From assembly GCA_905479495.1 (NCBI GenBank), contig CAJQMR010000007.1, positions 62,001 through 126,000 of the forward strand: a stretch of 64,000 bases of DNA, given 5' to 3'. Numbering within the stretch: the stretch's first letter is position 1; every line of letters begins with the position of its first letter. The stretch comes from an uncultured Anaerolineae bacterium. Lineage in GTDB: Bacteria > Chloroflexota > Anaerolineae > Promineifilales > Promineifilaceae. The translations under genes were made by a program, and so were the position numbers. Shown one piece after another: positions 29,890 through 48,716 of the stretch. The notes below the pieces were generated by a model. That model made no database searches. It saw only the letters and a program-made list of their open reading frames with translations, and was not told the DNA's origin.

Positions 29890-29950
29890 TTGGGTAATTA
29901 TGTAATTGAGTAATTGAACAGCCAATTACCCAATTACTCAGTTACTCGAA
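29887..29950. repeat. AATTGGGTAATT-type inverted repeat
   Basis: TAATTGGGTAATTATG and GAGTAATTG are answered by CCAATTACCCAATTACTC. The element starts at the phosphatase stop codon. A second copy lies at 48638-48693. Confidence 0.8.
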
Positions 29951-29971: not shown

Positions 29972-31381
29972 ATGTTTCACGTTACCCTTATTTCCACCTA
30001 TGATTTGGGCCACCAGCCGTTTGGGCTGGCCTCGCCAGCAGCCTGGCTGCAAGAAGCGGGGGCAGAGGTGACCTGTGTGGATGTGTCGCTACGGCCGTTC
30101 TCCCCCAAAACCGTGCAAAATGCCAACCTGATTGCCTTTTATCTGCCCATGCACACCGCCACCCGGCTGGCCGTCGGACTCATCAAGCGGGTGCAGCGAA
30201 TTAACCCGGAGGCCCACATCTGTGCCTATGGTCTCTACGCGCCCGTCAACGAAGCGTATTTGCGTCAGCTTGGCGTGCAATCCATTTTGGGCGGCGAATT
30301 TGAGCAGGGATTGGTCGATCTGGCAGGGACTCTGCGCGATGGTACGCCCTTGCCTAACCTGCCTTCGGTTTCGCTCATGCGGCAGCAGTTTAAACGGCCG
30401 TCCCGCACCAGCCTGCCCCCTCTGACCGAATACGCTTACCTGGATACCCCCGCTGGACGGCGCATTGTCGGCTATACGGAAGCAACGCGGGGCTGCAAAC
30501 ATTTGTGCCGCCATTGCCCGATCGTGCCGGTGTATAACGGCCGTTTCCGCATCATCCAACCAGAAGTGGTGCTGGCTGACATTCGCCAGCAGGTGGCCGC
30601 CGGGGCGCAGCACATCACCTTTGGCGACCCCGACTTTTTGAACGGTCCCGGCCATGCCCTGCCGCTGGTGCAGGCCATCCACGACGAATTTCCTGACCTC
30701 ACCTACGATGTCACCATCAAAATTGAGCATCTGCAAAAGCACGCCGAGGCGCTGCCGCTGCTGCGTGACACTGGCTGTCTTTTTGTGGTGAGCGCCGTGG
30801 AAGCGGTGGACGACGACATCCTGGCCATTTTGGATAAGGGACACACGCGGGCTGATTTTGGGCAGGTGGTGCAACAGATGCGCCAGCTTGGCCTGCCGCT
30901 GACGCCTACTTTTGTCACCTTCACACCGTGGACCACGCTGCGTGGCTATGCCGATTTTCTGGCGCTGATGGCCGAGCTGAACCTGGTAGAAGCGATCAGT
31001 CCGATTCAGTACGCCATTCGATTGTTGATTCCAGAGGGGTCGCGTTTGTTGGAACTGGAGGAGGTACAGGGATTGGTACGGCCGTTCGACGAAGCCGCCC
31101 TTGTTTATCCTTGGAGCCACCCAGACCCGGCCGTGGACGGCCTGTACGAAACCGTATTCAAGCTGGTGAAAGCCAGCCAAAACGCAGGCGAACCGCGCCA
31201 AACGCTCTTCATGCGCATCTGGCAGGCAGTGATGGAACTGCTGCCCCAGGAGGAGCGGGTGGCATGGGCGAATCGGCTGCCTGTCCTGAGTAAAACGGCG
31301 CAAGCTGTGCCCACGCTCAGTGAAGATTGGTACTGATGAGCGGAGCCATTTGCGGAGCAGTTTGCTTCCGACCTCGTTTAG
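29972..31381 (+). CDS. B12-binding radical SAM protein, CUAEP-type tail, probable selenoprotein
   Basis: A standard-code reading ends after 454 residues at TGA 31334-31336. A B12-binding-like domain (1-130) carries L-G-H-Q-P-F-G-L-A-S-P, F-Y-L-P-M-H-T-A-T and G-G-E-F. The radical SAM barrel follows with C175-x3-C179-x2-C182 for the 4Fe-4S cluster. This is the layout of the CUAEP/CCAEP-tail radical SAM family. The last residues are S-E-D-W-Y, then two TGA codons; the same frame continues A-E-P-F-A-E-Q-F-A-S-D-L-V to a TAG at 31379-31381. Reading both TGA as selenocysteine gives W-Y-U-U-A-E-P, which matches the family tail. The substrate is unknown. If recoding fails, the protein ends at 31336. 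Confidence 0.82.
31341..31370 (+). promoter_or_regulatory. candidate SECIS hairpin after the tandem TGA
   Basis: CGGAGC (31341-31346) pairs with GCTTCCG (31364-31370, one bulged T). An apical TGC/GCA mini-stem (31351-31353 and 31357-31359) carries a GGA loop that begins 14 bases after the second TGA. This spacing and a purine-rich apical loop are in the range of bacterial selenocysteine insertion elements, though pairing in the middle is poor. Confidence 0.45.
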
Positions 31382-31387
31382 AATTTA

Positions 31388-31452
31388 TCCACAGATTACA
31401 CAGATTTCGCAGATTGATTTAAAAATCTGTGTTAATCTGCGAAATCTGCGGA
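31388..31452. repeat. CACAGATT-family inverted repeat between convergent genes
   Basis: CAGATTTCGCAGATT (31400-31414) and AATCTGCGAAATCTG (31434-31448) are perfect complements, with further ACAGATTACACAGATT and AAATCTGTGTTAATC flanks. It lies between the radical SAM and MFS gene ends, where it may act as a terminator. Confidence 0.85.
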
Positions 31453-31455
31453 TTT

Positions 31456-32688
31456 TCACCTTCGGCCATTTGCCAGTCGAGATGCGGCGGGGGAGTGTCG
31501 CAAGCGCCACATCGCCCAGATGCCTACGATGGGGCCAATGGCCAGAAAGGCAAAGGCATAACGCCAGGTTACGGCCGTTTCCAGCGGTGGAATCAGGCGA
31601 ATGGTGAACAGCGTCAGCAAAAAGCCCAGACTGGTTTGCAGCGTCAGTGCCGTGCCCAGATATTCACGAGGCGCCAGTTCGCTGACGGCAGCGGAAAATT
31701 GAGCCGAATCGGCCGGGACGGCAAAGCCCCAAACCAGGCAAACAGCAGCCAGCAGCAGCGGATTGCCGCCAAACAAAAAGCCGACCCCCACGGCACAGGT
31801 GCCCGAAATGATCAGAGACGCAATGGTAATGGTGGTACGGCCGTAGCGATCCGCTAACCGCCCGGCCCACAAACTGCCCAGTCCGCCAATCGCTATGACG
31901 CCAAAGGCCGTCAGGCTGGCCCAACTTGAGGACACGTTTACGGCCGTAAAGCTGGCCAGCAAAAAGAGTGGAATCCAGGCCCACATGGCGTACAGCTCCC
32001 ACATATGCCCCAGATAACCCAGATTAGCCAGCACCACTTCTCGCTGGCGCAAAATTTGGCCTACCTGCCGCCAGTCAAACGGCGGGGATGGGCTGCGATA
32101 CGGCCCTTCTTGCACAAACAGCGCGCCAATCAGCCCGCCCAGCAGCGCCGATCCGCCCGCCAAATAGAGTACCGGCTGCCACGGGCCAATACCACCAAAC
32201 ACATTTAGCAAATGAGGCGCGGCAGAGCCAATCGTTAGCGCGCCAACCAACAGGCCAATGCCCAGCCCGCGATCCTTTTGGGTCCAGGTAGCCATGATTT
32301 TCATGCCAACGGGATAGACACCCGCCAGCAGCATACCGGTGAGAAAACGCAGCAGCAGGGCCAGGGCCAAACCATTGGCCAGCAGGGGAATGAGCAGCGT
32401 GGCTACCCCGGCCAGCGTGGCTGACCCCGCCATAAACCAGCGGGTCGGCAGCCGGTCGGCCAGGTTGAGCATGGCTGAGCCAAGCGCGCCCACCACAAAA
32501 CCAATCTGCACCGACATGGTGAGCCAGGCACGCCCGCCTTCGCTCAGGGTCCACGCTTCGGTAAGGGCAGGCACTACGGCCGAAGCCGAAAACCAAACAG
32601 CCATGCCCAGCAGTTCGGCCAGGGAAAGCAGCAGCAGCGTGCGCCATTTCTGTTTGGCTTGGGCTGAAGACATTGTTTGAGCGTTCAT
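31456..32688 (-). CDS. MFS transporter
   Basis: 410 residues, about 12 membrane helices; the early segment L-A-E-L-L-G-M-A-V-W-F-S-A-S-A-V follows a cytosolic start, and the A-like loop G-R-L-A-D-R-Y-G-R is in the second half. It resembles the cyanate/nitrate-nitrite permease-like branch, but the substrate is unknown. The ATG at 32686-32688 begins a normal N-terminus; a longer frame to 32880 would translate through a repeated leader hairpin. The leader has AGGTAATAAAC before the ATG. Confidence 0.88.
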   Translation of the reverse strand: MNAQTMSSAQAKQKWRTLLLLSLAELLGMAVWFSASAVVPALTEAWTLSEGGRAWLTMSVQIGFVVGALGSAMLNLADRLPTRWFMAGSATLAGVATLLIPLLANGLALALLLRFLTGMLLAGVYPVGMKIMATWTQKDRGLGIGLLVGALTIGSAAPHLLNVFGGIGPWQPVLYLAGGSALLGGLIGALFVQEGPYRSPSPPFDWRQVGQILRQREVVLANLGYLGHMWELYAMWAWIPLFLLASFTAVNVSSSWASLTAFGVIAIGGLGSLWAGRLADRYGRTTITIASLIISGTCAVGVGFLFGGNPLLLAAVCLVWGFAVPADSAQFSAAVSELAPREYLGTALTLQTSLGFLLTLFTIRLIPPLETAVTWRYAFAFLAIGPIVGIWAMWRLRHSPAASRLANGRR

Positions 32689-48637: not shown

Positions 48638-48693
48638 TAATTCAGTAATTAGGTAATTGGGAAATTACTTAATTACGCAATTACCCAATTACA
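48638..48693. repeat. AATTGGGTAATT-type repeat between the nuoM genes
   Basis: AGTAATTAGGTAATTGGG is answered by AATTACGCAATTACCCAATTAC. It starts at the copy 1 stop codon and ends 23 bases before the copy 2 start. Confidence 0.8.
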
Positions 48694-48716
48694 CTCTTTA
48701 CGCGGGAAGAGAATTT

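Follow-up and report, generated by a model that had tools for sequence, protein, structure and literature searches.

Tandem in-frame TGA codons in a CUAEP-type radical SAM gene of an uncultured Anaerolineae bacterium point to two adjacent selenocysteines

The radical SAM gene and its surroundings

The window, by which the whole analysed stretch of 64,000 nucleotides is meant, carries at positions 29972-31336 an open reading frame for 454 amino acids of a radical SAM protein, which ends in SEDWY (last codons TGG TAC) and then meets two adjacent in-frame TGA codons. The codons following SEDWY are TGA TGA GCG GAG CCA TTT GCG GAG CAG TTT GCT TCC GAC CTC GTT TAG, and with TGA read as selenocysteine (Sec, U) the sequence continues as ...SEDWY-UU-AEPFAEQFASDLV, giving a protein of 469 amino acids with the end UUAEPFAEQFASDLV. 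The first-pass annotation of this DNA had described a tandem TGA followed by an A-E-P tail up to a TAG, and reading of the frame confirmed this, with the TGA codons at 31334-31339 and the stop at 31379-31381. The features of the gene are listed below, the states of the two tail positions in relatives being abbreviated by residue (C for Cys, U for Sec).

29972-31381, forward strand: CUAEP-tail radical SAM selenoprotein gene (NF040546, 631 bits); predicted read-through product of 469 amino acids with U455 and U456
30494-30517, forward strand: CxxxCxxC radical SAM cluster motif (C175, C179 and C182)
31334-31336, forward strand: first TGA (putative Sec455); Cys in CU and CC relatives, the sole TGA in the UC clade
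31337-31339, forward strand: second TGA (putative Sec456); TGA in 95 CU relatives, Cys in UC and CC relatives
31340-31378, forward strand: tail AEPFAEQFASDLV, conserved at the protein level in all UU and UC genes
31354-31368, forward strand: SECIS-like hairpin GGAGCA-GUU-UGCUUC, its loop 20 nt past the second TGA and 23 nt past the first
31379-31381, forward strand: TAG, the true stop codon by frame reading

Profile comparison placed the product in the CUAEP/CCAEP-tail family NF040546 at 631 bits (cut-off 500), in agreement with the family proposed in the first pass; residues 4-465 align to profile positions 1-467 of 468, and the match therefore runs beyond both TGA codons. PF04055 (Radical_SAM) was matched with 43.9 bits (cut-off 29.5), and PF02310 (B12-binding) scored 20.4 bits against a cut-off of 32.1. 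The CxxxCxxC motif that had been read from the letters stands, as C175, C179 and C182 show no variation in 38 aligned homologues, and the two tail positions are likewise invariant there when U is shown as C. With NF040546 the window gene has in common the whole protein, the WY-x-x-AEP-Q tail and position 2 as the canonical Sec position. The A-E-P motif and both Cys/Sec positions of the family name are present, but as the variant U-U: the name allows CU or CC only, whereas the window gene has UUAEP and its close relatives have UCAEP, with Sec at position 1 only. ArsL, a radical SAM protein of arsinothricin biosynthesis (NF040542), was the second-best family and shares the architecture with CxxxCxxC, but its 280.9 bits lie below the curated cut-off of 450 and the match stops at residue 396, so that the tail is not in common.

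The AlphaFold model of the protein has a mean pLDDT of 90, with the last six residues below 50. Its best fold matches were AprD4, OxsB, MgmA and TsrM, radical SAM enzymes of known structure that carry a B12-type domain and share the overall fold (VIA Z 24-26 over 355-421 residues), but at only 16-19% identity and with the UU tail outside most of the aligned parts. The model thus resembles B12-type radical SAM enzymes, but also AprD4, which is not known to use B12.

An ATP-grasp/L-amino-acid-ligase-like gene adjoins the radical SAM gene in 39 of the 121 homologous loci listed, which hints at small-molecule or peptide biosynthesis, and a YggX-type iron-trafficking gene is close by in 26 of them; among the neighbours of these 121 loci, neither was found near the UU or UC genes, the window gene included. 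In L066, L099 and others, mostly Acidobacteriota, a CUAEP radical SAM gene, an ATP-grasp/LAL_C2 ligase and a YggX-type Fe(2+) trafficking protein form a conserved neighbourhood.

Immediately after the window gene, at 31385-31460, lies an AT-rich palindrome (ACAGATTTCGCAGATT...AATCTGCGAAATCTGCGG) that resembles a small repetitive element or a terminator, and a similar repeat stands behind the gene in L054/L140. Two copies of another palindromic intergenic repeat, at 29891-29948 and 48642-48695, are built on CAATTACCCAATTACTCA, for which seven matches with at most three mismatches were counted against 0.04 expected by chance.

Selenocysteine machinery and the downstream hairpin

Assignment of both TGA codons to Sec, as suggested in the first pass, calls for the corresponding decoding genes, and all of these were found in the genome of the window (G000; 7.28 Mb, 95% complete, 52 contigs, 7.4% contamination): selA (577 bits), selB (345 bits), selD (377 bits, with one in-frame TGA) and one tRNA-Sec (67 bits, anticodon UCA). 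The selD gene (G000:C16:331251-332186, L010) is itself a selenoprotein gene, with its TGA at YASCAG-U-ASK, where SelD proteins usually carry Sec, and it bears a strong GGA-loop hairpin whose 3-nt loop starts 20 nt past the TGA. More than 40 other tRNA genes found in G000 have ordinary anticodons, among them tRNA-Cys with GCA and tRNA-Trp with CCA; apart from tRNA-Sec, no UCA anticodon was found in the tRNA-family search of G000, in which 150 of 217 candidates were scored and which a very divergent tRNA could escape. Typing of the tRNAs found thus argued against another UGA-reading tRNA. General reassignment of UGA was rejected as well, since TGA ends other long open reading frames of the window and most UC genes; in the window it terminates 8 of 42 long open reading frames, that of the radical SAM gene included.

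Among the UU and UC genomes checked, selA is present in all except G335, a fragmented assembly of 630 contigs in which selB and tRNA-Sec are present and selA was not found. The CC genomes that have neither selA nor selB are those of the actinobacteria G417 and G418, plus G419, as would be anticipated with Cys in place of Sec; both genes are kept in other CC genomes.

With regard to the SECIS-like element, the first-pass annotation had proposed a hairpin with a GGA apical loop starting two nucleotides past the second TGA. This is the minimum-energy fold of the window sequence taken by itself, which folds ambiguously and no more stably than shuffles (z -0.87), and the other three UU genes fold with a GUU loop instead; it was replaced by the GUU-loop hairpin common to the relatives, which starts 14 nt past the second TGA. 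All tails are gap-free in the alignment, and with the start of the first codon set to 0 the stem pairs follow i+j=54. Among the listed homologues, the six core base pairs are intact in 100% of cells for UU, 97% for UC, 76% for CU and 45% for CC genes, and every other register tested gave lower pairing in the Sec types. Pairing in the CU genes was 0.744 as compared to a mean of 0.555 and a maximum of 0.621 in 1000 shuffles of the 3' halves, relatedness being uncorrected. Moreover, all 105 Sec genes have a G at the start of the loop, as compared to 9 of 16 Cys-Cys genes (p=1.8e-7), and Gln at this place is encoded by CAG in 101/101 Sec genes but by CAA in 6/15 CC genes. In L137, one of the UU genes, the stem is longer and A-U pairs stand at sites that are G-U or mismatched in the window. 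As seen from these comparisons, the hairpin is conserved in UU, UC and CU genes and degraded in CC genes.

The spacer of 20 nt between the second TGA and the loop is as long as the one in the selD gene of G000, and since UC genes carry the hairpin in the same place, the spacing of 23 nt must work in them. A search of Rfam yielded no family matching the hairpin. In Escherichia coli the upper stem-loop lies 11 nt from the UGA, with special sites at U17, G23 and U24 (PMC8659212); compared with these, the loop G described here would, by counting, correspond to position 24 from the second TGA and to position 27 from the first.

Homologues, tail constraint and order of change

Homologues were drawn from the class (396 genomes), the family (52 genomes) and public-genome loci, the latter being the best 80 of 432 relatives. 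All 121 distinct homologues with a readable tail have W-[YF]-x-x-A-E-P, with Cys-Sec at the two positions in 95, Cys-Cys in 16, Sec-Cys in six and Sec-Sec in four. A homologue that ends at W-Y, which would have spoken against the earlier proposal, does not occur among them; all run on as xxAEP with x being Cys or TGA. The listed UU genes are that of the window, L054/L140 from an independent assembly of a congener (G404; about 90% protein identity to the window gene), and L137 (G399) and L141 (G335) from two other genera of the same family, which also have TGA TGA. The six UC genes listed all belong to one genus (g11) of this family, together with their public copies. The recurrence of the W-[YF]-x-x-A-E-P tail, and of TGA TGA in four homologues, shows that the tail in the window is not due to chance. 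Each TGA is used singly in relatives, position 2 in the 95 CU and position 1 in the six UC genes, and the window gene has both. No W[Y/F]-UU-AEP was found in 396 genomes of Acidobacteriota, the phylum of L066, and UU therefore appears, within the genomes sampled, to be uncommon outside this lineage.

The codons for A-E-P are identical, GCG GAG CCA, in all four UU genes (L137, L021, L054 and L141) and vary in UC genes; given small counts, this uniformity may reflect the 3' context of the second UGA. Among the listed homologues, the first codon after the pair is preferentially GCG in CU genes (61/95) and GCC in CC genes (9/16).

Constraint on the tail bears on whether ribosomes pass the TGA codons. 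In the four UU genes pN/pS of the tail was 0.42 (0.21 without the divergent L137) as compared to 0.90 in the DNA past the stop, counts being small, and the last codons beyond the hairpin show mainly synonymous changes, with SDxV retained. Low tail pN/pS relative to about 0.9 downstream, together with synonymous changes past the hairpin, indicates that the second TGA is passed by the ribosome. UC genes, with Cys at position 2 and the same tail retained, imply reading of the TGA at position 1, and CU genes imply the same for position 2. Taken together, these patterns argue that translation passes both codons in the UU genes.

The order of change was followed in a large tree of 92 rows, from which the tail columns were left out, and in a careful tree of 36 rows. 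In the former, UC forms one clade inside UU, and UU/UC lies inside CU. In the latter, the nine UU/UC rows without L137 had 100% support, UC together with the UU gene L141 95%, and the UC clade 96/98, while UU as a single clade appeared in 0% of bootstraps (AU p=0.0375). All ten UU/UC rows formed one clade in 63% of bootstraps, and the AU test was not decisive on L137, which may have branched off first within this UU/UC lineage or represent an independent second origin of UU. With either placement, CU to UU to UC takes the fewest single-codon steps. As Sec-Cys is nested among Sec-Sec, Sec seems to have moved by one residue through a double-Sec stage. Following this, we propose that the ancestral pair would have been Cys-Sec, that a change of the Cys codon (TGY) to TGA may have produced Sec-Sec here, and that in the derived sister clade the second TGA may have become TGY, giving Sec-Cys; double Sec would thus have been the bridge by which Sec shifted one position.

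Readings of the tandem TGA and comparison with known systems

The reading that both adjacent UGA codons are Sec, decoded by SelB and the single tRNA-Sec under one hairpin, with the order CU to UU to UC, is very probably correct: each TGA is used alone in relatives and the machinery is present, which supports the double-Sec tail proposed in the first pass. The one short hairpin would serve both codons, each UGA presumably being decoded by the same SelB and tRNA-Sec. That one bacterial SECIS drives two consecutive Sec insertions, yielding a vicinal diselenide site, and that double Sec was the migration bridge from CU via UU to UC, is likely. Against this, just four UU sequences are known here, and double recoding should be inefficient. 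A single UGA in E. coli is recoded at about 30-40% (PMC4513850), which would leave little full-length UU product unless the organism does better.

CC genes are found on several branches of the family tree, which would fit a different history with both TGA codons still being Sec, namely loss (CC), regain of position 1 (UC) and repeated regain of position 2 (UU). However, about five steps would be needed, as compared to two or three for CU to UU to UC, the UC genes form a single nested clade with UU basal to it, and the UU/UC lineage has no CC gene among the listed homologues, so that we regard such an order as improbable. It is rather improbable, too, that only the first TGA is Sec and the second a stop, with a protein ending in ...WY-Sec and the tail as a relic. 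TGA is a normal stop in this genome, as in the window, and with inefficient UGA recoding (PMC4513850) a WY-Sec form probably exists as a by-product. However, in every UU gene the part of the tail past the hairpin is constrained as protein, and the alignment places the second TGA at the Sec position of 95 CU genes and at the Cys position of UC relatives that have the same tail.

Reading of UGA as Cys, by a tRNA of the ReC type, or as Trp would be in line with Cys at both positions in CC relatives, and Cys-tRNAs that read UGA are known in some bacteria. It is nevertheless very unlikely, because the sole UCA tRNA found is tRNA-Sec, the genome encodes SelA, SelB and a Sec-containing SelD, and the hairpin is linked to TGA-bearing genes. 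Finally, although the assembly is of metagenome type, with the fragmentation and contamination given above, a pseudogene or assembly error in which the 454-amino-acid frame just ends at an accidental double TGA is hardly credible, since TGA TGA recurs in the independent congener assembly and in two genera with tail and hairpin conserved, and the remaining protein is conserved with a confident fold.

With respect to function, two neighbouring Cys/Sec residues close to the C terminus would fit a redox relay or the binding of a metal or metalloid. On chemical grounds, the UU pair would probably act as a reversible diselenide/selenolate pair, with a selenenylsulfide in the relatives, and might reduce an enzyme intermediate or bind substrate or metal.

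Returning to double Sec as the preferred reading, two recoded stops under one hairpin would test the limit of the SECIS-UGA distance and the reloading of SelB between consecutive codons. The occurrence of CU, UU, UC and CC in one family represents a natural series that shows how the Sec position can move without a selenium-free stage, and offers matched enzymes for measuring the contribution of Sec at each position. Furthermore, annotation pipelines that expect a single Sec may truncate UU genes.

The family is already known in NCBI; new are the UU variant and a notable evolutionary series. The open-access literature searched contained nothing on adjacent or tandem Sec in bacteria, and a 2026 review that tabulates 119 prokaryotic selenoprotein families, UxxU and UxxxxU included, lists neither a CUAEP family nor an adjacent UU (PMC13188914). 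The double-Sec proteins of its Table 1, i.e., the UxxU metal-binding protein, the Prx-like UxxU protein, TsoB with UxxxxU and MbdU, resemble the predicted window product in having two Sec per protein, and the window gene differs from all of them, as listed there, in placing the two side by side.
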